From Dioscorea cayenensis subsp. rotundata (Eukaryota > Streptophyta > Magnoliopsida > Dioscoreales > Dioscoreaceae), in the NCBI RefSeq assembly GCF_009730915.1, contig NC_052489.1, positions 30,621,916-30,685,915 on the forward strand: a stretch of DNA of 64,000 nt. Reading direction: 5' to 3'. Below the pieces are notes generated by a model that made no database searches, was not told the origin of the DNA, and saw only the letters and a list, made by a program, of their open reading frames with translations. A program made the position numbers and the translations under genes. This document shows positions 18,001 through 64,000 of the stretch, in pieces. The stretch's first letter is position 1. Every line of letters begins with the position of its first letter.

Positions 18001-21000
18001 ACATAAAATATGATTATTGAACATGGACAGACGTGAAAGACCCAAGCTCATCATTAAGTTCAACTGTGGTCGAACTGAAGAGTCCATATGCAAATTAGGA
18101 TGTCATATTGATTTTTTAATTTTGCAAATATTACGATGCTGAACTGAAAATGGCAAATAGCAGAGATTTTTTAAGGATGAAGTAGTTATACACACTGGTT
18201 GGTTTCACTATAAGCCCCCTTTTAACAAAAACCACGCAGTTTATACTTCATAAATGGTCAAGTTCCCTTTCAGTTACACTAAAATACTTCCAAGTCTCAC
18301 TTCAAGAAACAACCATGTTAACAATATGCCATGAGATATGCAACACTTTCATTTTGAAGCCTGTTTAGACTACTAACACATCCATGATAAGACTCTGAAA
18401 CTTACGCAACACTTCAATACAGTGATCCTGAAAAAAAAGCTATTTCATCACAGTGACATTATTTGGCATGTACTCTAAAAAAAATAATTTGGATCATGAA
18501 GTGGCCATTAGCTTTCCTTGAAAAAAGCACACCTGAAAGTTGATCATTTGCAACCAATTTATAAATGTCTTGTTACTGAAATGAAAAAAAAGGGAACTAT
18601 GGGTAGTATTCCACTGGTGAACATTCCTCATTCTGAAGAGCATTTCTCCTAGTTTTGTATTCCATTTTCTTAAAGTTAATGCTTAATTAACTAGTTTACC
18701 TAAAGGCAAGAGCACAATGCCATCCTTTCAAGTGGATGGCAGTAAATTTGCTGATTTGTGAAAAAAGAAGAAAATTCACATGCACATGTCAACATAGGTA
18801 TCACATTTAGAATATACCGGATGCAATATTCCTGCATTTGGAAATTCAGCAAGGGATTCATCTCCGTTTAGTAACTTTTCCAGCACCTTCTTTCCAGTGT
18901 CTATACCTTGTGAAAAGCCATGAAACCCTTTCAAATCAGGAATGACTTGATTAAGAGCTTTAAATGCTGAATCATATTCACGATTTCTTCTTCGCAAACT
19001 GCTCAAAACCCTGATATAATCCACAAATAATGCATGAAGAACAACTTCCCCACAACATATCTTACACACAACTTCATCTGAAGAAGTTGAACTCTTATAG
19101 AAATCTAATTCACTCTGCGCACCAAAATCAGAACCACTCTGGCTTGCCAAACCGCCATAGATTTTCGCATCTTTATAACTACTGCTCATGATCAAAGTGG
19201 CCCCTTTCCCAGCACAACAAGCTTTACAAGCCTTTCTTCCACATTGGAAACAAACCAGAAGCAATGAAGAATCATGGGAAGAGGCTTTTGTAGGTGGTGG
19301 TTGGATTTCAGCACGAACTTCACACATTGCTCCATAGCAGGTTCTTCCAAGCTCAGAGCTGTTCCAGAAATCTATAACATTGTCATCTACACATTCTAGG
19401 CCAATGGAAGCGTTAATCTCGTCTTCATATGCTACCTGACCCAGCAAAGAGAGGCTCTTTGCAAAATAGCAAACCTTCACCATGTAGGAATCCTGAATTA
19501 AACGATTCGGATCTAGCGTTGCAGGAACAGTACTGATTGACACAAGAGCTCTATCTCTTTCAGCAGCAGAAAGATTGAGTCGCAGACGCTCAATTTCTAA
19601 CTTCATGGCTTCCAAAAAGCTCAATTTTTTATCCTGAAAATGGTTTCCATTCACAAAAATTCTAATAAATTGCAATATTCAACAGAACCCAATTTGCCGG
19701 AAAATAATTACAAAATAAAAATTACAGTGGCAATCAAAACTCTAATTGAACTACAACTGAGAGCTAAACAACATTGTAATTAAAAATCAAAAAATTATGT
19801 AGAACTTTCAGGTTACACTGAAAATATAAAAACTGGATCTACTGCAATTGTATGTAAATCTTGCCAAGACATTTCAGCAATTGGTTTGTGCTGCATGATG
19901 CAGCAGATAATGAAAAAGAGAGATAAAAGCACAATATTGAATCAGGAACAATACTCGATAAAATAAAATAAGTATGTGATTGTATAGAATGTTATGACAA
20001 AAAGAAAACTTAAGATCTAATATGATTGAGTTGCAAGATGGAATTTTTGGAGATTAAAAAAAAAAAATAGAGATCAAGTAAATTACAGCAATCTCCTGGT
20101 GTGTTTGGGGAAAAGGAAAGAAAATTGACATTTAAATAGGACTATCAAATACAAAGGCTAAGAGAATGCTACATTACCTTTTGCGAGCCAAGAAGGGACT
20201 TGACTAAATTAATGTATTTCTGAGTACTGCCAGATCTGTCAGGTCCTTCATGGTTTTCATCTTGTGATTGTGCATATACTTTAGAAGCAGTTTCAAAGTT
20301 GTCCAAAAAATCTAGAGCATCACCACTAGTGGAATGAATTTTTTCTCCTGCGTTTGGCATCTCTGTTTGAGACAAATATTGTGAAGATTCAACATCTCCA
20401 GTAAGAAGGTCAAACCAATTAGTGACTACACTTGGCTGAGATAATTGTGGAACATTATTATTCAATGAAGATGCAGCAGAGACACCATCATCATATGAAT
20501 CAGAAAGAAAAGGGTTGCTGGTGCCATTCATGTCTGAATCAGCTACAGAAGTATCAGGCCACTGAGTTTTCTCAGAAACATGCTTGATAAATTTTGCACC
20601 GGCGTCTTTATTATTAAATATGTTTGACCAAGGAAGAGAAGCTCCAAGGATTTCAATCTGTACAACCCATAAGGGAAAAAAATTATCAAGGTTAAGTCAT
20701 GGTGAGACACAAGAAACAAACAACAATCTCTTATTGGCATATAATTCATAACTTCAAACAAACAGAAGAAACTAAACAGATTGCTGCATTCTACTATAAA
20801 TTGATGGACATATAAATATAACTCCTCGATGCAAATGTAACAAACTATTTAAAATCATCATCCTCAACCTCTAATATTAATTTGAAATGCCATCTAAGTT
20901 GAATCCAACAGCATATGTACAAAAGATGAGTTTTATCTTCCATGTAAGTCTAAGACACATTCTATCATATATATATATATATATATAAGTTGCAGTATTA

Positions 21001-24000
21001 ATGGAAAAATAGAAGGTAACTAATTTCTGATATCACAAAACAAGTAATGCTAAGTTGTATGATGGCACACAATCACAATAACCTAGACTTACCAAGAAAA
21101 GTTTACAATAATAATATATATACATACTTGAGTTGCATCATAATTTCATTGAAACAGAAGACACACTAATGAGGAATTTGGAAATAATTCAAGAAGATAA
21201 TGCAATCAGACCACATATGCCTCACATTTTCAAAACAGCTACAGTAATGCTACAATAAATAAGGCCAGCAAAATTGTTAATCATAAGATGAAAAATACTA
21301 GAAAAGTGCTAAAATGTAGAGGATTAAGTTACTTCTGCTAATTAAACTATCTGTGATGAAGATAAATGAAAAATATAGACCCATTCATTTGTATCAGCTT
21401 GACTAAGCCAGCAGCAAAATAATCATCAGATATTAAATGCAAGATAAGAAAAATAAAATCAATGCAGTACCTCACCAAGAGTGATGGGGATTCTTCCAGG
21501 AACAGCAGGATAAAATGTAAGTGCAACAACACGTGTAAGAAAATTTAATTCTCCTTCAAGTTCTTCAAAGTCATACAACAAAGGGAGGTAGGGATTTTCT
21601 TCAACAAGAAAGCGTGTACTAGTACCAGTAATAGCAAAATCTTCTGGATCTATTTTTCCTGACAAGGGTATCAAGAGGTTTGTGCCATTGGAACACTGAG
21701 GAATACAAGCACCCTGGAACAGGAAAGAGTAGATAAAATTAGCATTATTTCTAATGTAATCAAGGTAAAAGCTAAAAGATCTCACGCAAATACTAGCAAG
21801 AGAACAGATCATATTCAGAGATATGAACAAAGACATCAAGCAGAAGAATTGTACTCGAAGCTTCTTTAGACATGGTATAAATATTAACTAACTAGTACAT
21901 GAAGACTCCAGATAGTAACCAGAAAAAGAACTGAAACATCATAAGCAGATCACTCTCAACCTTTGTTTCCTATATAAAAAAAATATGAATTTGAAAATCT
22001 CAACTAGCTCAGTTTGGAGCCTCATAAAACCAGAATTCCTTGATGAGAAGTTGGAGAAGATTTTTTTATTTCAATTGTGTAGAACAATGTCCATGATCAC
22101 CCTTAGTCTTTCTCGCCACATAATTTTAAAGATTTGTTTGCAGGTAAACAAAAGATAGTCAACCGACCAAGTAAATAAAATAGAAACAAGGTGAAATAAG
22201 TTGAAACTTTAAAATTCAAAATTATCAAAAGACACAGATGGTTCTGTTAACTATACTTTGTGTTACAAATGATAAAATGATGCTACTGATTGAGATTTTA
22301 GAAGAAACCAACCACAACCAATGGCAAGACAAACTAATGAAACACTTTAGCCCAACAGATTATACAAGGGAAAGTACTTGACCTTTCCATGAGCTAGTGA
22401 AGAAAAGCAAACATACAAAAAGGAAAAAAGCAATGTAAGGAAGTAAGGACCTCAAGGACAAGCTTAAGCCCTTCTAAGTTGCTTCCAGTCCTAACATCAA
22501 CGGTGGCAGGATATGATGCATCTTCAGCACCATGTGAAACTGTAAGAAGAAGCTGGCAAACATGGCAAGGCTCTCTAAGATATATAAAAACTTCAACTAC
22601 ATCTGCAGCTGGTGGGCATACCTGTGCAAATATATTTTTGTTAAAAAAAAGACCAACTCCGCTGGGGACATTATTGGTTAATAGGGAGATATCATGTATG
22701 CAAACACCTATTTATAACAAAATTATTAGTTTATGTAGCATGGCAAAGAGTAATACCCATATCAAGTCTTTATTTTTAAAACTTAGAAGGCCAGAACCAC
22801 CATTAGCGGTTGGAGCAATACTTGGGACTGGTTTCAGCATGCATCCAGATGGTCGTGATAAAACCTGAATATAGATAGATGCAATAAATAAAAACCTATA
22901 ATTTATAACAACAAAAGAGTAATTGAGAATATTTTATCAATGAACATGAGAAGCAAATACTATTTGCACCTACTTTTAAAGGATCAACTGCAACAGAGGG
23001 GAGATGCTTGAAAAGCCTTATTCCAAGAAACATTTCAAGCTGCTTCTGGCGAGAACTATCAACAATGACGTTTTTGTACCTACGCTGTATGGTTATCTTG
23101 ACATTTTGAGCAACAGAAAACTGTTTGAACTTCCCACCATCTTCACCAAAAATATTTAGGATCTGACTGTGCATGGCTTTAGAACCAGTATACAGCGTAG
23201 CATGGATATCACCTGCTAAAAGGAAAAGATCAGCCAGCAGATTTATTGGAGCTGATAGTGTTGTGCTTTTAAAGTGATCAAAGGTCATATCAAATCTCTT
23301 CCAAGTATTATCCTGGCAAGGACGCTCCCATGTGGTGGTTCTTGTATTATGATCAATGTAAAAAGTTTTCCCTGTCACAGCATCAGAACGTTCCTCCCAT
23401 CCAGATGGTAATGGTGAAGTATATCCACGATAATTACCAAAATCTGTGTATCTATTTGTTGATGGAAACCCAAAAGCTGCATCCCTGTCAAGTGGGATAC
23501 CCAAACGATGACACTGTTCAACAAAAACCTGAAGAGAACCAAAAAAACTAGCAGCATTTGTTCTGTCCAAAGAATCTGCACAATTGAACCGGATCACCCC
23601 ATTCTGAAATGACCTTAAACAGAACACACCTTCAAAATCATCATTACTGACAACTGCACCTTTAAATTCCTTTAAATGCACAGATGAAGGAGAGTACATT
23701 CCCTCGAGAAAACCAATGGCAATGGTACGTTCCTTGAGAAGTTTCCAAAGCCCCTCAATTGTCTGTTGCTCACCTCTGGTCTTGACAGTGGCATGCCAGT
23801 CATAATTTATCAATTTGATATGTGTGCCGCGTAGTTTTCCAGTTGAATTAACAAATTCTACACATTTCTTAAAGTAATTTACTAGTATAACTTCTGATCT
23901 TTTAGGCTCATTTCTGAGTAAGTTAACACAGACAATAGGAACCGAAGGAGTCTTTTTTTGATTGACCAGTGCAAGGTCAGAGTTTCTAGCACCATATCTG

Positions 24001-27000
24001 TTACTTAGTCTCTGGAAATACTGTAGACTACCTTTGAAAGGATCATGAGCTGAAACATAAATCTCAGCTTCTGCAGCTGTCAACCTTAGCTCTGCACCCC
24101 ACCAAATTGGGATGGTGCCCCGTCGCCAGACATACGTGCTGAAAAGAACATTTTCTTCAGCTCTCTTGGCAACCCATACAATTTGCTCACATTCCACTTC
24201 ATTTCCTATTAGAGTAGATGATGCCAATGAGAATCCATGAATTACACTGTCAATATGCATAAAGCAATATCATGATAGAATTCTGTGACAGCAAAAACAT
24301 TTGAAAATGATGGTCAAAACATTCCTTCATGGCCAAAGCATGTACAAAATCAACCACAGTCAAGTGACACATGGCAGGTAAAACAAAGGCTAGAAGAAGA
24401 CAGGATGATATCAACTCACCAAACTGTAGTTCATTTTATAATGAAAATGATCGTAACAAAAACGCATGAGACTATAGAGTAAACAGCAAGATGGAAAAGT
24501 AACTAAATCAAAATAAAAATCATCATGAGATATGCACAGAGTTACAAGGGAAAAAACATATGACCATACCTGAGGAAATTTGAAATACCAGAGATTCAAA
24601 ATTTAATGACAATCAACACAGATCAACATCAAAGCAATGCAATAAAATTTAGATGCGCCGGATAACACAATAAGCAAAAATGGATCCACTAAACCAGCAG
24701 TGAACAGGAGAAAGAGTGAACAATACACATAAATTATTCAAGAAAGATATAAAATACTGTGAAAAACTATAAAGAAATTAAATAACAAATAATTCAGCCA
24801 TTATGAATCAATCATGAACTTAACATATTATTGGCTACCTTCCAAATTTAGACGAGAAATATTTCTGAAATGACCAAAGGCATGAAACACTAATTAAGCT
24901 AATTATTTTTCATTCTTATCGTTGTCATTTATTAGCATTAAAAAAGTTCTGTATTTTTCAAGTACTGCAACTCAACCTCAAAATTAACGCCTATAGTTTG
25001 CATAGTATAAATACCATTACCCTACATGGCAAAAAAGATATTATCCAATACCAAATCCATTTAGTAGCAGCAAAAGATTACCTGTGCCAGAACAAGCATT
25101 CAGCCCTCTAGCCAAATATCGAGTGCCGGGATGTAACCTACTACGACGAGCCAATAGAGCAACAAATCCAACTGGTTGACCAGAGCCGCTAAGACTTCTA
25201 CACTCCGCGAACCCCTAAAAACAGCATATCATACAGAATAAACAGGATGAACAAAGACAGAATATCATTCCCAAGTGTTGGTACACCACCAGCTTATAAC
25301 TAATATATCATAAATATGGTTAGCTGGAATAAATGTCCGCACCAGAAAATAGACAAATAAAGGTGAACACAAGGCCAAAATAAGGATATCTTCAAAGCAC
25401 AGAAATAACTATAAGGTGAGGTAAGATCCTTATCGAGGAACAAAAAAAAAAAAAGATTGATTGAAATCCTCCAGTGCCTAAAATAAAGCAAAATTAACTT
25501 TTCACTAGAAACTAATCAACAATGAACTAATAAATTATCTTTGAACAAAATAAAGTAAATAAATGAGATATTTCACCATTACATCTACAATAAATATAAA
25601 TATTTTTTTCCAAAAAAAAAAAAAAATTTTGAAGCCCAAAACAGTACCTTCTGCCTTAGATGTGAAGCATTCATGTAAAACATGAAATCCTACAAAGTTC
25701 CTAAAAAGGTTATATATCTCACAAAAATTGAAAATTCTTATATTTTCTACTTACAAAAAGAGATTAATTCCAGCATAGACCGATGTTGACCACATACATA
25801 GGTATGTTTCAACAATTAATCATCAAGATTATGTTGAGACATCATTCAAGTCAATGCAACAAATTTGCATATAAATGAGTGGATCTGCATCAGATTTCAA
25901 ATCGGATAAAAGCCCACCAGTGAAACTGAATGCACCAAAGATGAATGTACAGATCAGTAGCTTCACTGAAGGGCTCACAAGGGTGACTGTGGTAACCACC
26001 AGTATGTGGTTCACTGAAATTATTGTTCTTCAATGAGTTAAATATAAAATAATGCCGTACACAAAGACATGAGTTGATGATTGTATTCTCGTGGATGCCC
26101 AAATGCTGCTTTTCCATTCCAAAGGAATTACTTTTTATTTAAAAAAAAAAAAAAGTTTATGCAGTCAAGATGAGGTTTAAGGACCTCACAATCTATGGAT
26201 GCACATACCTGTAGAAGAATGACACAGTGGTTTGGCAAACCAATGTCCTTAAAAGGCTTTGAAAACCAACCGTTCCAAACAAATTCATCATCAGGATTCT
26301 GGTGAGACATACGGCTTGGAAATGGCCTGCTAATGTCCCTTGTTTCACAAAAGAAGTGCTTTCCGTCAATGTCAAGCTCAGCTAATTCCATCACATTCTT
26401 TAATTCACCTTTCCCTTGAGTTTGAGGATTTTGAAGGGGAATCTTAATCCACTTACTTTCTGTCACCGTATATACACGCCCACCACCAGGCAGACTAGGA
26501 ACTGTAGCAGACAGCTCAGTTGCAACTAGAAGCAGCCCAAGGCTTCCTAATGCTGAATAACCAAGCAATGCTCTTGCATAGATGGTCTCTTTACACAGCA
26601 ACCTAGATCCATCTGTGATGTAGTCCAAAGCCTCCTCTTCAGAACGAAAAATATCATGTCCCCAATGCCCATTATATGACAACAGCCCAGTGGTTGGTTC
26701 AATATAAATAACTTGGGTGTCATTCCCAGTTGACAAACTGACAACAATATATGTTTCGCTAGATTCTAGCACAACGACTAGGACTGATGTATCCCTTCCA
26801 CCTGAAACAATATCCAGAACACAAACATTCATATAATTAAAAAACCCTAACTTATTCAAGAGTACACATTCAAATTAAGAGTAAAATATGCACTCCTATA
26901 GTCCTCCTGCATGAAAAAAGAAAATATAATAGGCAAAGTACAGAACAAAAATGCAAATGATCTTTGGAGTATCCTCAATTACGTCAAAGCGTGTCCGAGC

Positions 27001-28211: not shown

Positions 28212-29699
28212 TCAAGGCATGGAAATTGGATTGACTGCAGGGACATGAACAGGGAATTGATCAATTTCATCAAGCCAAGGGGACCTTCTCTCAGGCTCAA
28301 CATTCTTAAGAGCTCTCCAAACAGCACTGTTACACTTAAACCCAGAACCAAACCCAATCTGCCAAACTCTATCACCTTTCTTGACCCTCCCTTTCTCCTC
28401 AACATAACCAAGTTCATACCACACAGAACTACTTGAAGTGTTACCAAACCTATAAAGTGTCATCCTTGATGGCTCCATATCATATTCACTGAGCTTCAAC
28501 CTCTTCGCCACCTCATCCAGTATTGCCCTCCCTCCTGCATGGATGCAAAAGTGCTCAAAAGCCAGCTTGAAATCTGGTACGTAATCATTGATCATCTTCA
28601 TCCTTAGCACTCTTCTTCCAATAAGGTTCATGAGGAAATGGAGTAGCTCGGAGATGGGAAGGACTTGAGGTCCTAACACAGTCATGTTAGTCTTCAAAGC
28701 CTCACCGGCGACGAACATGATTTGTTTAGAGAGAACCACGCCGACCTTGTTTTCGTTATCTTCTTCCTGGAAGACACACTTATAGGAGTTGTCATCGGCG
28801 CCGGCATGCGTACGAATCAAGTTGGTGAGCCGGTACTTGGCGCGGCGGCGATCGGCGGTGAGGTTGGAGAGAAGGATGGCGGCGGCTCCCATGCGAAAGA
28901 GACAGTTAGTTACTAGCATAGATCTTTTGTTTCCGTAGTATGCGTTCTGTGTTATGTTTTCCGTACTCACCACCAACGCATATGAATTTCTGTGTACCTG
29001 CATGCATGCATGCATACATATATTAAATTATAATTTAAAAAAAAAAATCTCTCTCTTTAATTAATGAAAATAAGAACTAAGAAGTATATATATATATAAT
29101 AGTACCTTGAGGAGTTGGGTGGCGAGATCTACAGAGATAAGACTAGCACTGCAACCCATGCCACTGAGATTATAAACCTTGAGATCCTCTCTCATTTGAT
29201 ACCTATTAATGATAGTCTCTGAAAGTGATGGAGTTGGAGAAAACAAACTACTGTTGAGAATTAGGAACCTTATGTTCTTAATATTATTCTTGAACATAGT
29301 TTTGTCAAGAAGGTCATCAATGGCACCAAAGATAACCATCTCTGATTCCTCCCTTACTCCAACCATGCCTGGTGACTGATGTTTTGAGAGTGCCTTTGGG
29401 AAGTAGGTTGACTGGCCTAATCCTGAACGTTCAAGTATCATCTTCTGAAAATTCACATTCTCTGGAGTGAAGGTCCCTGCATCTATTGCCACCTTCACAG
29501 TGGCCTCACGAGTAAACTTGTAAGCTTCACCAGGTCTGTAACATGAGAAGTTGATCAAATAGAACTGGGGATGATGATGATGATGATGAAGAACTACATA
29601 CAAATATATGAATGGAGGAATTAGTATTGAGGCCAAGAGGATGATGGTAAGAGGTGGTGCAGGTTCATAAGAAGCAATTAGATGAAGGAGATACTCCAT
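28212..29699 (-). CDS. KCS: 3-ketoacyl-CoA synthase (very-long-chain fatty acid elongase)
   Basis: ER-membrane condensing enzyme of fatty acid elongation, joining malonyl-CoA to a long acyl-CoA for waxes, cutin-associated lipids or sphingolipids. Two exons: 29699-29106 and 28997-28212; 459 aa, at the short end of the family. One hydrophobic segment (~17-37) with a six-His run after it precedes the thiolase-like fold. The catalytic triad is present: C183 in GMGCSAS, H351 in [11 protein letters not shown] and N384 in [14 protein letters not shown]. Their spacing (168 and 33 residues) equals that of FAE1-type enzymes. Also visible are [26 protein letters not shown]-like [21 protein letters not shown], and the C-terminal [16 protein letters not shown]. 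The intron falls after LATQLLK. The paralogue within the family cannot be set. The two-helix N-terminus usual in FAE1 appears reduced. Confidence 0.94.
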
Positions 29700-31095
29700 T
29701 GAGTGATGAAACTAAAAAAATGGTTTGAGTAGTGAAGAGAAGGGAAAGAGATGGGAATTTAAAAGGAGGAGTTTAATTAATGAATTCATGTGATTAGTGA
29801 GAGACAACTGGGATATTTATATATCTTAGAAATGAATGTACTATCATTTATTGAGTTGGGTGTTAGCATGCCTTTTTCCCATCACTTACCATAAAAGATG
29901 AATGTGCACTAGTGCATTGCTATATTGCTATTTATTTATTTACTTAAAACTGCAAGCTTTCCTATTGATTTTATCTTTCACTAGCAGGGCTTGAAGAAAG
30001 TCAAAGAACTGTTAATACTCCAGAAATTAATCATCAATGTAGCATCACATACAGTTCTTGGGAAAGAAAAACTCAAAAAAGACATTGAAGGCAATGAAAC
30101 AGAGGCAGATGCTTAACTTAAATGTTGTCAGAGATGGTTTAATTTTCTCACCTTGGATTCTTGTAAACATAAGATTCATATATGGGCTTAAATCCCTCTA
30201 GTCATCAGCTCAAGCACACAACATTGATCAAACGATCGAGTGTTAGTTTTGAAGTTCTACAATTATGGTCATAAAAGTAATTAAATAAACATTTATGGAT
30301 TTATTGAAAGCAACTTAGTATTGTAATATATATATATAGTAGTATTTTTATTTGTCAATTTTAATTAAATCATATAGATTAAAAAAATTAGTTAAAATAA
30401 ATTGATAATCTAACATTTATATAAATTATATTAACTTTTTAAGATTACTTTTTATTTAAAACATGTTTTAAATAAATGTGTAATTGAATAGTATAATTTA
30501 TTGGAAGTTGTAGAAGTAAATTATATATAAAAGTAAATTAAAAAAATATTTAATGCTTTATAATTTATTTTATTTTTCCAAGATTAAAAAATATGTTAAA
30601 ATTAGTTCTTTAAAATTGTATTAATTTTTTAAAATTACCTCCATTTAAAACCTATTAAGATTTTTATTAATTTCTCTTTATAATTTAATTATATATTTTA
30701 TTTTTATTTTAACATAGTGTTTTTAGTTAAATATTCAAAATTAAAATGTAGTAGTATATTAAAAATAAAAAGTAAAGTTAGAAAAAAAACTATTTAATGT
30801 TTTGTAATATTTTTTAATGGACATATAAAAAATAAAAAAAAAGTTTTTAAAATAAGACGAGTAAAAAATTAGGAAAAGAGGGAGTAAATGATATATTAAA
30901 GCAAGTGGTTCTCACGTGAGTAACACGTGAAGATGTGAAGACACGTGGCGTGTTCGTTGTCGAATTTTTCGTTTCCCTCTCTTTTGTTGCCTCTTTCTTG
31001 GGCTTCCTCTTCCTCTGCTCGTCAGTTCCTCACCAGGGTTAGGGTTTTCAAGGTTTCTCTCGAGCTCCTTCTAGGGTTCCAGTGAAGCGAAGAAG
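29700..31095. other. Divergent intergenic region between KCS and importin alpha
   Basis: About 1.4 kb between divergent start codons. 29700-30000 is probably the KCS promoter. 30250-30890 is extremely AT-rich with no features. The last 200 bases are the importin alpha promoter and leader, with an AGGGTTAGGGTTTTC telo-box-like motif near 31037. Confidence 0.5.
30913..30947. promoter_or_regulatory. Triple CACGTG G-box cluster upstream of importin alpha
   Basis: CACGTG occurs at 30913, 30924 and 30942 in 35 bases, 150-180 bases before the importin alpha ATG. The third sits in GACACGTGGCG, an ABRE-like context. bZIP/bHLH binding is inferred from the motif only. Confidence 0.55.
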
Positions 31096-34000: not shown

Positions 34001-36352
34001 AAGCTTTCTATGGTGAGGAATGCCACTTGGACTTTATCAAACTTATGCAGGGGAAAGCCACCACCACCATACGAGCAGGTTGGTTGTTTATTTTGCCTTA
34101 GGATTTTTCTTTTTTTAATTTTTCAGAGTAATCACTGGGATTAGTTCTGTTGTTGAATGCTTTTCTGTCTTTGCTTAATAGACAAAACCCGCTCTTCCTA
34201 CACTTGCGTGTCTCATTTATTTAAACGATGATGAGATTCTAGCTGATACTTGCTGGTCACTATCATATCTATGCGATGGTACGAGTGACAAAGTTCAAGC
34301 TGTAATTGATGCTGGAGTTTGTCCACGACTTGTTGAGCTTCTTACGTATGTATGATGTTATTTTCTCAGTTACAATTCTTCATTTTCCCTTTTAGAGGAA
34401 TAATTTTTATTGTTTTTCCATGTAGGCATCCATTACCAACTGTTGTTATTCCAGCCCTCCGCACTGTTGGCAACATAGTCACTGGAGATGACATACAGAC
34501 GCAGGTATAACTGTTGTTTTCCAATGCTTATGTGATCTTATAGTTCCAAGTCCCTACCTTTTCTTCCATTGAAATATTCCAGGCTGTATTCTTCTTCTGT
34601 ACCTTTCCAAGTTCACTCAGATCAGGTAGGGTACTAGAGCTACTTAGTTTCCCAAACTGGTTGACAAATCTATTTATGACCCAATCAATCATGCATGAGG
34701 TGTTGTAAAATTAAGACTGTAAGGTTATTAGCTTAATAAGCCTGAGGCCTTCTCATAATGCTTGGAAACATTTTGAAATCCAAACTCAAAATCTTTTGAG
34801 AAAAATTTGTAGTAATGTTTGTGATTTTTTCACCTTCCCCTGTGTATGTTCATTTTTTTTTTTCAGCTGCTTAGCGTGGTTTGGTTTGTGCACCTGCCAG
34901 TTTTGCATAGGTCTGTTTTTAGGGTTTCCGTAACTATTACGGGTACGAAATGGTTATTTTTGGGTGCATGTGTACACGCGTGTGCACGAACTTGATTTAA
35001 TATTTGCATTTAGGTGTTTGTTAGATATATTGGTTATTTTCTAAGTGTGATGCCAGCATTTTTTAATGATATTAGAAGTATTTCTGGAAAATTATTTTGG
35101 AATCCAATATGTAATGACTATTTCATGGGGATTACTGAGGGGCATTCTTCTTTTTTGCTTCTTAAATAGTGTCATATGACTTAACATTTACTCACTCTTC
35201 TTTCTTCTATCTAAAAATATGTTGTATCTTATTAGTATTTTTCTCCACCCACACAGCATATTATCAGTCAAAATGCACTTCCATGTCTGTTGAACCTTCT
35301 GATACGTGATCATAAGAAGAGTATCAAGAAGGAAGCTTGCTGGACTATTTCAAACATTACAGCTGGAAATAAGGATCAAATACAGGTAATCATTGCATAT
35401 TGACGTTGTTAACCTATGTTTGCACGCCGGCATGTTTGCCTTTAGAATGCCCACCGTTTAATTTGCAGGCAAGTGCCCATCATTCTTAGCAATCTTAAAA
35501 GTGCATGCTTTAGATGTGTGGAACCACAACAGCACGTTAGGCTTGGCTTCTGGCCATGTTTATGCTAATCCGCTAACCCAATTTGAACTAATTAAAACAC
35601 TTTGGTCTATATACCATCAGAAAATAATTGTTTGGGCCCCATGCATGCACGGACACACCAATACATATCAGATTTTTTAAAAAAAAATTATTTTTATCAT
35701 TCATGTCTCACATCATGAACCATTGTGTGTGTGGTATGCAAACCTCTTTAGACATTACATTTCATCACTAATAATCAATTAACAGGCTGTGATTGCTGCT
35801 GATCTCATCCCTCCGTTGGTACATCTTATTAAAAATGCTGAATTTGACATCAAGAAGGAGGCTGCTTGGGCAATCTCAAATGCTTCTTTAGGCGGTACCT
35901 GTGACCAAATAATGTATTATGTTGCGCCTTCCGCCATTTATCTCTGATTCATGCACCGTGAATCGTCTTGCTGACATTGTGACTTTGGTGCCAGGTTTCT
36001 AGTCAATGAAGGTTGCATCAAACCCTTGTGTGATCTCCTTGTATGTCCAGATCCAAAATGTGTGATGGTTTGCATGGAAGGGCTAGAAAGCATCCTTAAA
36101 GCTGGCGAAGCTGAAAAGAACATGGCAACTGCAGATGTGAATCCCTACGCTCAAATGATTGATGATGCTGAGGGTTTGGACAAGATTGAGAACCTGCAGA
36201 ACCATGACAACAACGAGATCTATGAGAGGGCTGTTAAGATCCTTGAAACATACTGGTCGCAGGAGGAAGACACTGCTGCTATTCTACCAAATGGTTTGCC
36301 AAATGGTTTACAGAATGGTATTCCTCCTGGTGGATTCAACTTCAACCTATGA
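31096..36352 (+). CDS. IMPA: Importin subunit alpha (nuclear import receptor)
   Basis: Cytosolic and nuclear adaptor that binds classical nuclear localisation signals and importin beta. Ten exons: 31096-31299, 31387-31483, 33508-33599, 33694-33825, 33893-34078, 34182-34345, 34426-34504, 35257-35385, 35786-35913, 35995-36352; 522 aa, family length. The N-terminal importin-beta-binding domain (residues ~1-75) is basic with [20 protein letters not shown] and SLQKKRREG. Armadillo repeats follow with the W-x3-N array: [74 protein letters not shown] and [16 protein letters not shown]. The acidic C-terminus holds [20 protein letters not shown] and ends GGFNFNL. The usual T in AISNAT is S and the usual K in QIKYLV is M, both mild. 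All phases close. The second intron (2 kb) carries a SINE and a tandem duplication. Confidence 0.95.
32661..32966. repeat. 153-bp tandem duplication in importin alpha intron 2
   Basis: TTGTGACTGTCAGAGTCTGA begins copies at 32661 and 32814. The copies match along about 150 bases, including CCCGATTAATGCTTCC and ATTTTCCCACTCTCAGATC, with only about 6-8 differences. Copy 2 abuts copy 1 directly, so this is a recent segmental tandem duplication. Confidence 0.9.
33090..33334 (+). mobile_element. tRNA-derived SINE in importin alpha intron 2
   Basis: The 5' part has an RNA polymerase III A-box-like TGGTCTAATGATAG (33109-33122) and a B-box-like GAGTTCGAATC (33158-33168), spaced as in tRNA-derived SINEs. 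The element ends in an A-rich tail (33314-33332). TCATCTC flanks it at 33083-33089 and 33335-33341, a likely 7-bp target duplication. It lies in the sense orientation. The family is not identified. Confidence 0.75.
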
Positions 36353-37454: not shown

Positions 37455-38043
37455 ATGGATCTAGATGATGAAAAGGTGAGGTCTCTTCCTCCTTGATCTG
37501 TTGTTGTTTCATCATATACTAGTTAAAAATCCAATCTTTTGATCATTTGAGTTGTGTTCTTGGTTGTAGGGATCTGGATCTAGTAATTCAAGTAGCAGGG
37601 GATCTCCAGAAGCTAAGAGTTGTGCTGATTGCAGGACTACAAGGACACCTCTCTGGAGAGGAGGGCCATCTGGCCCTAAGGTCATTCTCAAGTCCTTCTC
37701 ATTTGATCCAATTGATTTGATAACCCTCTTTGTTTTATTTTGCTTTATTTATATCTTAGTTTTGTTTGGATTGCAGTCATTATGCAATGCATGTGGGATT
37801 AGATATAGAAAGAAGAGAAGAGGAACTATGGGCTTGAAAGATGGAGGGGATGATTGGAAGAGGGGAAAGAGTGGTGCTGTTAGTAGAAGCAAAGAACAAT
37901 ATGTTAAGCTTGGTATGTTAGGAGGAGGTTTGGGGAGAGATGTGATTTTCAAAGATAAATCTTTTCTTTGGAAGCAAATGAAACTCAGGGAGGAGGAACA
38001 GGCTGCTGTACTTTTGATGGCTCTTTCATATGGAAATCTCTGA
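37455..38043 (+). CDS. B-class GATA transcription factor with LLM domain (GATA15/16-like)
   Basis: Nuclear zinc-finger regulator; LLM-domain B-GATAs act in greening, cytokinin and light responses. Exons: 37455-37475, 37570-37680, 37777-38043; 132 aa. The type IV zinc finger is C-X2-C-X18-C-X2-C: SCADCRTTRTPLWRGGPSGP then KSLCNACGIRYRKKRR (residues ~22-62), with the intron inside the finger after GPK, as in plant B-GATAs. The C-terminus contains LLMALSYGNL, the LLM motif of GATA15/16/17 and GNC/GNL. The short Ser-rich N-terminus, lacking a long HAN-type domain, points to the short GATA15/16/17 group. A pyrimidine-rich leader precedes it. Confidence 0.94.
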
Positions 38044-40670: not shown

Positions 40671-43600
40671 TCAAGGGAACTGGAAATTCATGGAATCCTT
40701 GAACCTTCCGGCAGGGGGACTAATGTACACCCAGAGCAATGAAATGACAATAGACAACAGCCCGGACCAGACGTAGATGATCGTCGGAACTTTTCCTCTT
40801 CTTCCCATCAATCCTTTGGCGAATGGATAAAGATGACACAACACCCAGAAGCTGAAAAAAACTCCTCCAAGCAGCTTGCTCCATTGAGGGTACTCACTGT
40901 ACATAGTCCTCGCCACGCCTACGGCGATACTAATCATGTTTATCATCATTATAGTGATTGGAGGAACCATTAAAAAGCTCCATTTCACAGCATACAGCTC
41001 TGCAAACATGTCGTCATTGTCATCGCTTGCCGGCTTTGATGTTAGTGTGAAGGAGATGTCCACACCTGCAATGACTTTCAGGAGTCCTTGTAAAACTGCA
41101 GCTGGGTGTGCACTTGTGCCTCCAATCAACCAGAATTGCTCATTTCTCCACCACTCATGAAGTGTGATTCCAGACCATTTGATCTCCAGCAATGCAAGCA
41201 TGCACAATGTGGCCGAAATGGCAAGCAGGAACACCAGAAAAGTAATGCTCAATGACTGCACTATGAACTGGCCTGTGAATAGAGAGATTGCAGGCAGAAT
41301 GCAGTAGACAAGCAAGAATATTGATGTGAATGGATACATGCCTACATTGAAGTAAGCCACTCTCTGCAAGAACTTCATTCTTCGGGTTGCAAAAAGCGCG
41401 TTGTTTCTGGAGAAGAAGATCTCCACTGAACCTGTTGCCCAGCGGAGAACTTGGTGAAGCCGGTCGGTGAGATTGATTGGTGCTGTGCCTCGGAATGCAT
41501 CTCGCTTTGTGACACAGTACACTGATCTCCATCCTCTGTTATGCATTCGATAACCAGTGACTACGTCTTCAGTGACAGAACCATATATCCATCCTACTCT
41601 CTGGCCCCATTCGGTTTTATCTTCATAGAAACATGAGATGACACTGATAGCTTCAGCAACCGTTGCAGCGTCTAATGGCTCCCGGGGGACAGTGAGTGCG
41701 CCAGCAGGACGGCCTTGTCGAACACCGGGGAGGTCTTGGAGCAGCCTGCCTTGATACTCTGCCACAGGGATGGATGCAACTAGAGTTGCTGAGCTTCCAA
41801 ACCTCTTAGGCAAGAGCTGAGACTCGATATCTCCATCTTCTGTAGGTTGTAGCATAATCTCTTTATCATCTTCCAATTCTCTCTTCTTCCCCATTGTGTT
41901 CTTTCTCAAGAAAAGTTTGATCTTCTTCCTGCCGAACCATCCATGATGCTCAGTAGCTCGAGGAGGACTAAAGCCATAAAGAGCGGTTCGTCGGAATATG
42001 CAGCCAGTTCCTACATACATTGGCCCTTGCAAACCATCCATGGCTCTCATTGAAACATCAAAGAACACCAAATTGTGATTAGCGTATCGGTCATTTGGAT
42101 CAATACCTTCGAACCTCTGAGGGAACTGAACATAGCATATACGGTCACCTCCTCTATCAAGCATGAAGCACATACCTTCTCTCAGTGCCAGAGAGTTGTA
42201 GAAATAGTGATCACAGTCCAAATTCAGAATGAAAGGACCATTGGACATTATGGCACTGGTTCTAACAAGAGCATTCATGGCTCCTGCCTTCTTGTTGTGA
42301 TCATATCCAGGTCGTTTCTCTCTTGACACATAAACAAGCATCGGAAGCCTGATGTCCACGCCGGTTGTGTCAATGAGGTTCTTGTCACTAGCCTCTAATC
42401 CCATGACAGGTTCTGAGTTTGGAGGAGCAAGCATTGCCTGAAAAAAAAAAATAACAAATAACAGGTTAAATACTTGAAGACATGAGAGTGTGATTATAAA
42501 AGAATGCATATGATTGGGATTTATGGTCACCTGAATTATACCGGCGTGATCGCCTCTAGAGTGATCCTGCTCGGCAGAAGGCCAAGTCCCAGGCCAATGC
42601 GAACCATCAGACATCCAAGTAGCCTTCAGTATCTTGATAGGCTCAGTGCCATTGCCTCCTGCTGCTTCCTGCTTCTTGGCCCTGATTTCTTCCTGAGCAT
42701 TATAAGCATCAGAACGCCTTCGAATGGACTCCGGCAATGAGTTTATCCTCACTTTGAACTCATCGTACTCTCGCTTCACCTTCCGGCGCTCTCTGACGAA
42801 ATCCAAGCGAACCTTGTTCTTCAAAGGGTCTCTTTTCTGACTGAAGTATGCCTCTGGATTCCTTGGCTCGATATCATGCTTTCTACAAAAGGGGACCCAG
42901 ACACCAGCAAAGCTGGCAGTTTCAGCAAGAGCTTCAAAAGTGAGGAGTGAGCCACCATCATCGGAGAGATAGCAAGCAAGCTTTTCAACAGGATAGTCAA
43001 CAGCGAGAATAGAAAGAATGGTGTTGGCAGTGACCAGAGGAGGCTCTTTTTCCGGGTCAGCAGTCGATACAAATACATCAATGCCTGGAAGGTCAGACCT
43101 TCCCTTGGGATTACGAATGCTAGGAGACTCAAATCTCTCTTTGAGAACAGAGAGATCAGTAGCCCTGTTGACAGGGCAAAGCTTTGGGAGCTGATCAAGA
43201 AGCCATGAGAATGCAAACCAGACCTCACAAGTAATGGACATTGCCCAAAGCCATATAGCTTCATGGTTTGGATGCCTAATTCTCCAATGCAAGAACAATC
43301 CCAGAGCCACCAAACGAATCATAATCAACAATCTGAAAACAGCAACCCAAACACTCATTGCACAATGTTTCCTCGAAATATTCACAAGACATTGATAAAA
43401 AGAGAGAAGCTAAAAATTAGTGTTTTAGTACCTGTATGGGCTGATGATTGCTTGAGACACTCCTACTTTCCTTGTCAATGGTCTCCGGCACCTCCCACCG
43501 AAATTCGGTGGCTCATCGAATCCCTTAAACCCCATTCCTCCTCCTCCTCCTCCTCCACCATGCCCGTCTTTGGGCCAGAGAGCATTGCCATACCCATATG

Positions 43601-44357
43601 TTCCCTTTGTCTCAAAGAGCCACCGGTTGTGATCGAAATCGGGTGGTGCCTTGGTGGACCTCATCAGTGACATTCTTCTCCCCGCTCTCAACTCAGCCAT
43701 AGATGTTAACGGCAGCGCCTTGTCCTCCTCCTCCTCCTCCAGCGACTCTTCATCATCGCTCACACCTCTATAAATCTCCTTACAACCTGGACATTGACCT
43801 CCACTGGCAATACACTCCAAGTAACAATCCCTGCAAATCATGAAGTCACACTCACAGGGAGAGTTCGAGCCACAGAGAAACGCCTCGCCGTCACAGCCAT
43901 TCATCCGACAAACCATTCCCGCCGACTTGACCCCGGCTTCCTCCGAAGAACTATCAGCAGAGCACTCCATGACATGGCCGCGGGTGACGCAATTGAAACC
44001 TCCGGTGAAGATAGTGCCGGAGATGAAGCTTCTCTTAGGGGATGGCAGTGGTTGGTGGTCAGGAGTTGGGGGGATGTGAACGGTGTAGTGGACAAACTCG
44101 GAGGTGGCCTCACTGCCTTCATCTCTGGAAGCGGAAGCCGGGCAATAGCGGCTGCCGCCGCCACTGGAAGCCCGCCCGGAAGGGTGAGAGGCGGTGACTG
44201 GAGAGTGGAGGTTGTTGGGAAGGGAATGACGAGGGGCTGGGCTGGTTAAGCCCATGCTCCTGCTACTTCCCATTGCTCCCTCCGCAGCTCCTCTTCCGCC
44301 GGAGGAGATGGTGATGGTGACCGGAGACGCCGGAGAGGATGATCTCTGGAGGACCAT
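40671..44357 (-). CDS. CSLD: Cellulose synthase-like D protein (CSLD5/OsCSLD4-like)
   Basis: Membrane glycosyltransferase family 2 enzyme making beta-glucan or mannan-type wall polymer; CslD proteins act in tip growth and at cell plates. Three exons: 44357-43432, 43332-42531, 42437-40671; 1164 aa, CslD length. An N-terminal RING-like zinc domain (~150-192: CRMNGC...[12 protein letters not shown]...CPGC) follows a Ser/Gly-rich start. Two transmembrane helices (~310-350) precede the catalytic core with DDGG (~433), DCD (~650-652), TED (~866-867) and QVLRW (~905-909), then about six C-terminal helices, ending NFQFP. The [12 protein letters not shown] insert and [10 protein letters not shown] resemble the CSLD5/rice CSLD4 branch, which is my recollection and not a tree. 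ATG 44357 is preferred over an upstream in-frame ATG at 44489 because family proteins start near MVLQRS and the upstream stretch is a CT-repeat leader. Confidence 0.95.
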
Positions 44358-45024
44358 CTTCAGAGAGAGAGAGAAACAGAGAGAGAGTGAGAGAGAGAGA
44401 GAGAGAAGAAGAAGAAGAAGAAGGTGACTGAAATTGGAAGTGAGACTTTGAAGGGTAACGGTTAGGGTTTTTAGAGTTTTGAATTGCAACGGTCGGCTTC
44501 AACGGCTACTATTTTCAAATTTGGGAGATTTCCAAAATTGACTTTTCATACACTACTTTCTGTAAAGAAATAACGGCTATGTATGCATAAAAAAAACAGC
44601 TAAATAAATAAACAACATAATGCTTAGAGTATGTATCTATGTATGCATCATAACAAGGAGATGTTTATAAATGTAAAGGAGTGCTACACCAAACAAAAAA
44701 AAAGCCTAAATAAATATACAACATAATGTAAATGTATGTATATATATATGTATGTATGTTAGTTATTGTTTCACTCTACAACTGGAAATCATTTTATCAG
44801 CTGATCTCTGAGAGACATTTTTACTGATTTACATCACATAAATGGAAAGCATTGGATTTGAATTCTCTGACAATGTGGGCCTCACATCCTCATAACAATG
44901 CAGGCAGAACCTGCCTCAATAACATGCTTGCCTTGTGATTTTTATCTGAAGAAAAAAATCTCATACAATCAGCATTACATAGGTGAACAATACCAGTTAA
45001 GACCAGCGAGTTTGAACGATTGAT
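44358..45024. other. CslD leader/promoter and MADS 3' flank
   Basis: The CslD leader has a long pyrimidine tract on the coding strand (44362-44422). Around 44588-44750 there are two diverged copies of a ~60-bp unit, AACAGCTAAATAAATAAACA / AAGCCTAAATAAATATACAA with ACATAATG following. The (TA/TG)n run near 44725-44760 belongs to the second copy. No gene seen. Confidence 0.5.
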
Positions 45025-51558: not shown

Positions 51559-54180
51559 ATGGAGAATTTTTGCGGTATTGCTAAATTCAACGGGGAGGGA
51601 AGAGTGCCGATGTTCACTGCTCGGACTTCTTGGGAGTTGGTGTTAGCTGAGATATGTGAGCGATAGGGGTCTCGAAGTTTCCCTGTCGAGGGTGAAGTTT
51701 ATCACACCGGATGGATATAAAAGCGGTTTGTCCAATAGAAAACGATGTTGACTTCCAGCGAATGTGTCACGTGCACTCCATCTTCAAATGCGATGTAGTT
51801 GATCTTGTTGTCGAGACGCATAATGTGCCATCGCGGAATCCTAATGAAAAGCGAGTTCTACTCGTTAGTAAGTTCCTTCTCTTTTATTTCGATCCATCAG
51901 TATGGGTTCATTATTGTTTAAATATGTCGGGTCATCGCTTAACATATTGTACTAGTCGCTCACGCTAATTGGTAACGGTTTAAGTATTTAATTTAACGCT
52001 TTAAATATTGGCATTATCCTTAAATATTATATTCTCGACTAATATATTGATCGTTTCATTCTGATCGAAGTGTCAGGTGGGAATTCGATTCTCGCGAGTG
52101 CTCCCGCTCAATCCCATGGTGACCCGGACGGTGTGGGATGTCTTCCATCCCTCGCCGAGACCATTCTCAAGTGCTATCGTTGGATATTGACAACGCTTTT
52201 GACGCTGTGGAACATTTCGGGGACGTACTTGAAATCATGCAATCAAACGGAATTTTGACTTTCAAATTCATAAAGAACGAGAAACATCGGAGTGATCGTG
52301 GAATCGCGGCACGATGGTTGTCATTAGGCGCCTTTCACGCTTCAAAAGAGTATAATAAAAAAATACTTTCGTAATCAAGACAATCAACACGTCACACACT
52401 TGCGGTGGTGGCATAGGTTTGGCGTCATATCCGAAAGCGTCCAAAAAATGGGTAAGCGCATCGGTGATTCGAGGCTCAAGGACCGCCCTCGTATCAAGGC
52501 CATCGACATTCGTGAAGGGACATGTTGCGGGAACATGGTGTCACATACCATACAAGCGGGCTTGGTTGGGAAAAAGAGCCCTCGCTTGATGGTATGTGGA
52601 CACCATGTGATACTCATGATCTTTCACGATTTCGATGCCTGCGGATTTGTCTCAGCCATTTTATCCATCAGCTAGCAGCATCGTGAGTCGGTGGTCCTTG
52701 ATGGCAGTCGACATCTCCGCCATCTGATCGCTTTGCTTTGATATGTGGATAAGGTGACGTGACATCCCGGCAGCTAAGCGATCGTGGAAAAGAGACTGAG
52801 ATCGCTTTTAGACGCATGCGTTCTTTTCTTTTCAGCGTGTATTGTGGGATTCAAGAGGGCTTTGCGGATCAGCTGCATTTTTCTCGATGGTACCCACTCC
52901 TCTGGAAAAATATCGGGGCATACCATCAGCTGCCACGAGGGAAAGATGGAAACAATGGTTTTTCCACGTCGCCTTTCGAGTATAGTCAACAACGAGACCG
53001 ATGCCAATTGGACTTGGTTCATATCTAAGTTAGGCGATGCTTTATATGAGGAAGGAGATTATCATGAGATAATTACCTTCGTGTCAGACAGGTGGAAGGG
53101 CCTTGTAAACGCAATTGCGAGAGTCTTCCCTTCTTCGCCACATGCATCACTGCTTCGACATTTGGAGGCCAATTTTATGAAAGCCAATGTCGGACTTGGG
53201 AAGACATCGAAGGATGAGTCTCGGTCGATATGCTCCGCGATCGCCAAAGATTTCGATGATACCGTGAATGAATCGCAGCCACATCACCCGAAGCTCATCA
53301 CCGGGTTGATTAATAAATCGGATATGGCACATTGGTCGAATTATCTGCTCGGAGGTGATCGTTAGTGGTGAGATGTATTCAAATGTCGCGAGTCGCTCAA
53401 TGCTTGGATCAAAGAAGCTCGCCATTTACCCGTGCGACGTAAAAATGGTCGACTCCATAAGGTCTCGCGAATTTTTGATTTACACTTAACATTTCGTGTT
53501 ACCCCTTTTAAAATGTTTTTTTATCTTTGTTTAATTAGACTTCTCCGACATTAGATATTGATTTTTATCGCTTTAACCTTTTTACAATAATGTTTAAAAA
53601 GGTTCACGAATTATTTAACCATCACTATCTTTGTTTAACGTTATTTGTAGGTACAAGTTGATCGCGCGTTATGTGAACCCGGGCGTGAGCAAGCTGAACA
53701 AATGGGAGACCCTACTTATGCCCGCACATACATTCAAGGTAGAGATAATTGTTGAGGATAGCGAAATCTTCGTGTTGGTCGTCACATCGATGATCGTTAC
53801 GGCTGATCGACCGGTCAGAGAACTCCGTGGATCTCGCCATCGTAACTTGTTCATGTCGAAGGTGGCAAGTTTATGGTATTCGTCTAGAAACACGCTTGCT
53901 ACCGCAATAATGCATGCAGACACCCAACGTTCATCGATTTATTAGCGGCTACTTCACCGGCCGATAATTACAAACTGGCGTATAAGGAAGCTATATTCCC
54001 ATACCCGACGTATGCAGCCTTGCGACGGAAATCGTGAACTTCGCTTATGCATCACCGCGACGAGAAGGCGACTCAGGGCGCCCTAGAAGAAAGAGGATCG
54101 AGTCGCAAGAGTTTGATGTCCGCGAAGTTACATTGCAGCTCACCGCCATGGATCCCGTCACAATCGTAGATCTCTAGAAT
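51559..54180 (+). pseudogene. mudrA-type transposase of the MULE (degraded)
   Basis: MuDR-family transposase, degraded. From the ATG at 51559 (MENFCGIAKFNGEGR) a PB1-like N-terminal part includes VCPIENDVDFQRMCHVHSIF and VVDLVVETHN. A likely intron spans about 51870-52075. Then come the FRAR1/MuDR-type zone (LTFKFIKNEKHR; KEYNKKIL; KDRPRIKAIDIR), the MULE catalytic core (GFKRALRISCIFLDGTHSSG, NETDANWTWFISKLGDALYE, FVSDRWKGLVNAIARVFPSS) at 52784-53365, and a C-terminal WETLLMP...EIIVEDS plus degraded SWIM zinc-finger zone at 53640-53950. The DG of FLDGTH is the expected second-line catalytic motif. Frames change at several places between 51660 and 53950 and the longest intact piece is 193 codons, so no full transposase is made. 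Confidence 0.85.
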
Positions 54181-62096: not shown

Positions 62097-62132
<36 letters not shown>

Positions 62133-62198: not shown

Positions 62199-63983
62199 AT
62201 GGAGGCCGATTCGTGGACCCGATTCTCAGCGAAGCATCAACAATCCGCCGTTTTGCAATCCCGACATGGTGAGTGCTAAAACCTAATGTTCGGTTTATCG
62301 GATGATTAGGGCTTCTTGTTGGTGTGCGATTTTATGGGAGGTTTTGTTGATAGATCTGTACCTGGGGCTTGACGAGATCGATGGTGGTGGTGACGATGGG
62401 GCGGAGTTCCCTTGCCCCTTTTGCAGCGAGGATTTCGACATCGTGGGTCTCTGCTGCCATATTGATGAGGAACATCCGGTGGAGGCCAATACTGGGGTAA
62501 TTACTTCTTGGATATTGCTTTTATAGTCTAAAAATTTTATCTTTATCTTTATTTTCATTGGGGGGAGTTCTAGAATCCATGTACTGTGTCCACTGAGCTT
62601 ATTCAATTTAGATCATTCACTGTTTCCCTTCCATTTTTCCTCTTTTGTTTCTGTTTTTATTAAAATGTGATTATTGTATACAATTTCTTTATTTTCCACT
62701 TGATCTGGAAGTCCTTGTGTTCACCTATATTAGTTCCTTTTATTTTCTTGGATTACATTTATACGCAGTATGAGGGGTAGTGTATAACCATCATCAGCCC
62801 TATTTCCTTTTGGGACTCTGTCACTTATTATTTCCTGTTCTTCTTTGCTTGTATATACTATGAATTCCGAACCTGGAGTACTTTCCTGAACATGTTATTA
62901 GCCAAGGATAAGCATACGGTGAATTCATTAATGCAATCATAAGATTATAGCAATTTTGAGATAATCTTTGCTGTTTTTGTTATAGTGTTTTGTGATTTTC
63001 AACTCTGAGAATGAAAAACTGGGAATGTGAAGAATTTTTTTTGGTACCAACATCATTATAATCTATCTGTCATTTGTGATGAGAAATTCGGGCTGTATAT
63101 GGATAATTTTGTGTTATATACCATGTATTCTATTTAATTTAAGTGTAAATCATTTGAGTTTTGATAAAGTAGGCTGTTTGATTCTTGGAAAGTTGGGAAA
63201 GATGAGTTGTGGCCAGTTATTTAAAGGTGAGTTTTTTTTTTTTTTTAATTTTTCCCCTTCTTTTATGCATGTGTATCTATTGAGATTTTTTGGATATTAC
63301 CCGCAATCAGTTATATTAACATGTTTTTGGAACAATCCATTAATTGTTTGCACATGTATCCATTATTCTTTTGGACATGTTCAAAATATTAACTTATTAA
63401 TGCCTTATTCTTGAATTTGGATTTGTCGTATTTTGCAGGATTGCCCACTTTGCATGACTAGGGTTGGTATGGATTTGGTTGGGCACATAACAATGCAGCA
63501 TAGGAGTGTCTTTAAGATATCCTTTCTTAATTCCTTGTCTACTTTTAGGTTTATCTGAAAACTTGGGCATATATGTCCTCTCATGTTGCCATCGTATGCT
63601 ATATTTGTTGATGGAGTTGGAACTTTTGTCCAGTTTCAAACGCTTGTTAATTTTATGGAAATTGTTTTGACAGTAAAGTCTGAATAACACGTAATGCATT
63701 CCTTGACAAGATATTACAGTCAACAAAGGAGGAGAATCCGAAAAGGTTCATCAGGGTCTCATTCTGCAATTCCTTTTTTGAGAAAGGAAATTCGACAAGG
63801 AAATCTACAGCCCCTTTTTGGGGGATCTTCTTTTGCAGCTTCCTCTAATGCGGCACCTAATCCATTGTTGTTGTCATTTATTCTCAATGTTCCTGTTGCT
63901 GATTCAACAAAAGATCTACAAATTGAGTCTTCAGATGAAGGAACTGTGATGGATGAGGGCTCAGTTGAAAAAGTTGTAGAAAG
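62199..63983 (+). CDS. DI19: Di19 (drought-induced 19) zinc-finger protein, 5' part
   Basis: Nuclear Cys2/His2-type zinc-finger protein of the Di19 family, linked to drought, ABA and light responses. Exons seen: 62199-62268, 62354-62496, 63439-63516, 63718-63983; the gene continues past the window. The product starts MEADSWTRFSAKHQQSAVLQ, then DLYLGLDEIDGGGDDGAEFP. The first finger is CPFCSEDFDIVGLCCHIDEE-H and the second is CPLCMTRVGMDLVGHITMQH, followed by a basic QQRRRIRKG nuclear-signal-like stretch and SAIPFLRKEIRQGNLQPLFG. Intron 3 (63517-63717) has an ATATCCTTTC donor, a TTCCTTGAC branch site and ends in AC: a U12-type AT-AC intron that keeps the frame (FK|SQQRRR). The exon 4 donor AG|GTACTA at 63984 is inferred. 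Confidence 0.93.
63517..63717 (+). other. U12-type AT-AC intron in Di19
   Basis: The donor ATATCCTTTC matches the U12 AT-AC consensus. TTCCTTGAC at 63699-63707 matches the U12 branch consensus TTCCTTRAY, with the branch A 11 bases from the terminal AC at 63717. No GT-AG pairing around it keeps the conserved reading frame. Confidence 0.88.
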
Positions 63984-64000
63984 GTACTACAAATGGGCAC

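Follow-up and report, generated by a model that had tools for sequence, protein, structure and literature searches.

The window, i.e. the whole 64 kb stretch of DNA that was analysed, ends inside a Di19 gene on the + strand, the start of which lies in its last 1.8 kb. Elsewhere in the window, pieces of a SAC9-like phosphoinositide phosphatase were found on the - strand at 22899-24269 and 18779-19678, with Syja_N and a WW domain in one ORF and SAC9_C8D in the other. A 3-ketoacyl-CoA-synthase-like gene (28212-29711, - strand; FAE1_CUT1_RppA in 28215-29027) is present in two ORFs, apparently split by a short GT-AG intron after 'QLLK'. A long ORF of the cellulose synthase family occupies 40674-44498 on the - strand (1215.7 bits, residues 110-902 of 912) and the adjoining ORF gives a zf-RING_4 match (32.9 bits); this combination is presumably the one seen in CSLD proteins. 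On the + strand, a Mutator-like (MULE) transposase piece is found at 52778-53362 (38.0 bits against a cut-off of 27.6), along with pieces of a family 28 glycosyl hydrolase, an Arm_3 protein, which we take to be importin-alpha-like, and a GATA zinc-finger protein at 12884-13696, 35975-36349 and 37570-38040, respectively. Neither tRNAs nor Rfam matches at gathering score were found in the 64 kb window.

The Di19 gene was modelled on the + strand as four exons, the last of which is truncated by the window end. Exon 1 (62199..62268) opens with the ATG at 62199 and is followed by a GTGAGT donor after 62268; its model is open and Di19-like. Exon 2 (62354..62496) has an AG ahead of 62354 and a GTAATT donor past 62496, and encodes the first part of the zf-Di19 domain. 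Exon 3 (63439..63516) is preceded by TTTTGCAG, encodes the rest of zf-Di19 and has AAG (Lys) as its complete last codon. Exon 4 (63718..64000) starts with the basic stretch SQQRRRIRKG and continues into the start of Di19_C. An unbroken (CT)n run at 62106-62132, about 66 bases upstream of the start codon, is probably part of the 5' leader.

The joined protein has 191 residues within the window. Pfam analysis has shown zf-Di19 (PF05605) at residues 41-93 with 79.4 bits against a cut-off of 27.5 and Di19_C (PF14571) at residues 117-187 with 55.8 bits against a cut-off of 29, the latter match covering positions 3-73 of the 102 in the profile, of which the remainder falls past the window end. In the phmmer comparison of the AT-AC joined protein with PDB sequences, the top relative was 'Protein DEHYDRATION-INDUCED 19' (9qt9 chain C, 150.3 bits), probably the Arabidopsis protein that was studied with UBR4/BIG in PMC7618180. 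The assignment of the gene to Di19 by the first-pass annotation is thus supported by both domains, each above its Pfam cut-off, and by the PDB match. The residues QQRRRIRK between zf-Di19 and Di19_C are a candidate nuclear localization signal (NLS), and an NLS between both domains is described as the usual layout of Di19 proteins in the passages of PMC13299491.

The third intron of this gene model lies at 63517..63717 on the + strand. It is 201 nt long, is in phase 0, has 66.7% A+T, starts with ATATCCTTTC and ends with AC. The consensus of the U12-type AT-AC 5' splice site is ATATCCTT, and ATATCCTTTC at 63517 (63517..63526, + strand), preceded by the exon triplet AAG, agrees with it. A U12-type branch site, TTCCTTGAC, was found near the 3' end at 63699..63707 on the + strand and fits TTCCTTRAY. 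Its branch A is presumed to be at 63706, 11 nt ahead of the last intron base, and the intron end at 63717 reads TTAC. The 10 bases AAGATATTAC separate the branch site from the exon, which resumes with AGTCAACAAAGG, and there is no pyrimidine tract in these 10 bases. Passages of PMC5932401 describe plant U12 introns as having the TTCCTTRAY branch consensus and no polypyrimidine tract ahead of the 3' end.

The intron coordinates, donor, branch site, terminal AC and 11-nt spacing reported in the first-pass annotation were all found in the letters as described. Its wording of a textbook, near-perfect intron holds for the motifs and their spacing, but it is slightly too strong in two respects. The purine ahead of the branch A is G instead of the better A; an A at this position is one factor in efficient plant U12 splicing, according to earlier work cited in the same passages (PMC5932401), and the efficiency of the present branch site may therefore be below the best. 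Further, the 3' end is a tandem AC/AG (63716..63719, + strand), in which the AC (to 63717) is in frame and the AG (to 63719) shifts the frame, so that the exact choice of the AC matters for the protein.

Each U12 motif on its own occurs at or below chance expectation for 64 kb of the window's composition: the donor word RTATCCTTT was found 2 times against 2.40 expected and the branch word TTCCTTRAY 3 times against 4.66 expected. The ordered combination of donor word and then branch word with YAC/YAG occurs once in the window in a scan of both strands (a gap of 5-13 was permitted between the branch word and YAC/YAG, the actual gap being 7). For the second copy of the donor word, at 50601, no partner branch site is present up to 3000 nt away. 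In 400 dinucleotide shuffles of the window, 14 pairs arose with the two words 60-1000 nt apart and 40 with 60-3000 nt between them, which corresponds to 0.035 and 0.1 pairs per window, respectively. Taken by itself, the pair is only moderately unusual. The intron call becomes convincing because the pair sits where an intron is required by the Di19 frame, between two codons that separate zinc finger 2 from the basic stretch, and because AT-AC, among the junctions translated and scored, is the one that yields a Di19 protein ungapped at the joining point.

Joining of 63516 to 63718 stays in frame and gives HRSVFK|SQQRRRIRKG. In the phmmer alignment (150.3 bits), FK|SQQRRRIRK lies over FK|LQRKRKSRK of 9qt9_C and the junction is ungapped; a 2-residue gap is present about nine residues past it. 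A gap in the conserved protein at the AT-AC junction had been named beforehand as an observation that would speak against the intron, and none is seen there. The joined model, the Pfam domains and the 9qt9_C alignment also agree with the earlier placement of the intron after the second zinc finger and before the basic stretch. Among the five U12-type 3' ends tried from the ATATCCTTTC donor, only the AC at 63717 keeps the frame open. The ends at 63710 (AG), 63724 (AC) and 63728 (AG) lead to early stops at codons 143, 116 and 137, respectively. The AG at 63719, through which the U12 spliceosome would remove an AT-AG instead of an AT-AC intron, lies 2 nt past the AC and 13 nt from the branch A, but with its use Di19_C would no longer be read in frame and a stop would come at codon 140; hence we regard the choice of this AG as extremely improbable.

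Transcripts joined through a GT-AG pair at the same place would also have spoken against the AT-AC intron. Open GT-AG pairs were listed for last exon bases 63450-63639 and last intron bases 63640-63769, with introns of more than 60 nt. In this range 14 pairs are open and in frame, with donors after 63466, 63505, 63536 and 63548. With the donor after 63466 or the one after 63505, the intron would intrude on the zinc finger or its margin. The pair that was scored against 9qt9_C, one of the 14, is the 63548/63720 joining, in which the major spliceosome would remove a GT-AG intron at 63549..63719 (+ strand), alone or alternatively, and the AT-AC motifs would be chance occurrences or relics. This pair is open, in frame and overlaps the U12 sites, and the exon side of its donor is AG. 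It would add the 10 residues ISFLNSLSTF between the zinc finger and the basic stretch, the first four of which are the U12 donor read in frame. The product, however, scores 134.7 bits against 150.3 (15.6 worse) and has a ten-residue gap against 9qt9_C, so that at the sequence level, and for this one scored pair, the comparison favours the AT-AC junction. The consensus of the GT donor is GTAAGT, and the weak donor TAG|GTTTAT matches it at 3 of 6 positions, whereas each of the other two GT introns of the Di19 gene matches at 5 of 6. Four GT sites with 4/6 matches are present inside the intron, but all of them lie past the in-frame TGA. Moreover, in-frame GT-AG pairs are so common in the scanned range that the existence of the 63549-63719 pair is unremarkable, and the string FKISFL was unmatched in a full-text literature search, which sequences in figures would escape. 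Use of the major-spliceosome pair is considered highly improbable.

We are therefore highly confident that the Di19 gene contains a genuine minor-spliceosome U12-type AT-AC intron, whose normal removal as a whole places the basic NLS-like stretch and Di19_C directly behind the double zinc finger. The motifs, their spacing, the reading frame and the ungapped junction match to 9qt9 are read directly from the sequence, and from these we infer removal by the minor spliceosome in planta. Taken together with the literature, they suggest that this spliceosome removes the entire intron and so yields the normal full-length Di19.

If the intron were retained, the reading frame would meet a TGA stop at 63556..63558 (+ strand) and the computed product would be a protein of 110 residues in which the zinc fingers are kept and the basic stretch and Di19_C are lost. 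The first-pass annotation had proposed that splicing efficiency could control whether the protein gains its tail. This arithmetic of retention (TGA at 63556, 110 residues, no tail) supports that proposal only in part, and nothing was found that shows regulation. Slow or failed removal would probably act mainly by lowering full-length mRNA via the premature stop, rather than by providing a dedicated tail-less isoform, and the retained RNA is more likely to be decayed or kept in the nucleus than to be a source of tail-less protein.

A regulated switch, in which minor-spliceosome activity (under cold or drought, for example) sets the amount of zinc-finger-only Di19, is a rival reading. Retention spares zf-Di19 and removes everything after it, the G at the branch purine suggests sub-optimal efficiency, and in the passages of PMC5932401 plant CBP20 likewise has an AT-AC U12 intron between its core and its NLS tail. 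Alternative splicing coupled to nonsense-mediated decay (NMD) is also cited for At-Di19-5 in a review (PMC3591102), the intron being unnamed in the passage. On the other hand, no isoform, protein or condition documented for such a switch in the Di19 gene was found, and the published reading of CBP20, as given in those passages, assigns its U12 intron a role in ensuring correct splicing and not in making isoforms (PMC5932401). Such a switch is hence judged unlikely. More elaborate, and very unlikely in our judgement, is a twintron-like arrangement in which the minor spliceosome gives the standard protein, while the competing 63549-63719 pair gives the ISFLNSLSTF insert or retention gives a zinc-finger-only Di19 unable to join BIG/UBR4; minor-spliceosome activity would then tune the N-degron pathway and protein quality control. 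The preferred reading remains the ordinary removal of the whole AT-AC intron.

The consequences of a lost tail can be considered in the light of the BIG/UBR4 complex. In passages of PMC7618180, KCMF1 joins UBR4 through a C-terminal pin helix and DI19 is proposed as the plant counterpart of KCMF1 via its C-terminal pin, the plant map in that study being of medium resolution and modelled with AlphaFold3. DI19 is without the ZZ domain, unlike KCMF1, according to the same passages (PMC7618180). In our phmmer comparison, residues 6-105 of the Di19 protein, zinc fingers included, showed weak similarity to three distinct KCMF1 sequences (E 0.0042-0.0069), and the pin end of the present gene lies beyond the window. 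A 110-residue protein, if made, would be devoid of the basic stretch and also of the C-terminal region with the pin through which DI19 is proposed to join BIG/UBR4. Loss of the tail on retention would thus affect more than nuclear entry.

Correct annotation of this stress-related gene benefits from the recognition of an AT-AC intron where two domains meet: gene prediction limited to GT-AG introns would overlook the splice junction and could place spurious residues in the protein. If retention or the alternative pair were regulated, of which no sign was seen, the minor spliceosome would be linked to Di19 and, via the DI19-BIG/UBR4 connection recently proposed in PMC7618180, to plant protein quality control. 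The probability of such a regulated isoform switch is small.

Among known systems, the twintrons such as the prospero intron (PMC3564746, in part) also have U12-type and U2-type site pairs at one place, as is the case here. Compared with the prospero twintron, the U2-type pair of the present intron is weak, in-frame pairs are many and the arrangement is a putative one, read from the sequence. Searches for related loci in viral and prokaryote collections, which are uninformative for plants, gave 8 pattern matches in viral_contigs and 110 in genome_contigs, with no relatives among either.

The Arabidopsis Di19-2 gene belongs to the same family as the gene studied here, and its U12 intron is assigned to the minor spliceosome and has been examined in mutants (PMC4892727, PMC3422263, PMC5853960). 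In the passages of these papers, the position and the terminal dinucleotides of that intron are not given, and the likeness is at the family level. Di19-2 is reported as a U12-intron gene with defective splicing in u11-48k plants (passages of PMC4892727). It was followed in U11/U12-31K knockdown plants, and the Discussion of that paper, drawing on earlier work, places Di19 among the genes needing 31K for their splicing (PMC3422263, in part). In the passages of PMC5853960, however, Di19-2 splicing was not significantly altered in the 31k mutant, for which reason Di19-2 was chosen as a control, and the 31k plants were rescued by QQT1 and not by Di19-2 cDNA. The papers thus differ as to how strongly Di19-2 responds when 31K is lost. 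The failed rescue carries little weight, since Di19-2 was undisturbed in those 31k plants.

A likeness in domain layout comes from plant CBP20, a protein unrelated to Di19, which shares an AT-AC U12 intron between a conserved core domain and an NLS-bearing tail, this intron being conserved from liverworts to higher plants (passages of PMC5932401). In nearly every CBP20 branch site the purine position is occupied by A (PMC5932401, in part), whereas the Di19 intron has G. The CBP20 authors conclude in the same passages that their U12 intron serves to ensure correct maturation (PMC5932401). The Di19 intron is sound as a find but ordinary: it belongs to a known kind, and U12 introns have already been described in this gene family.
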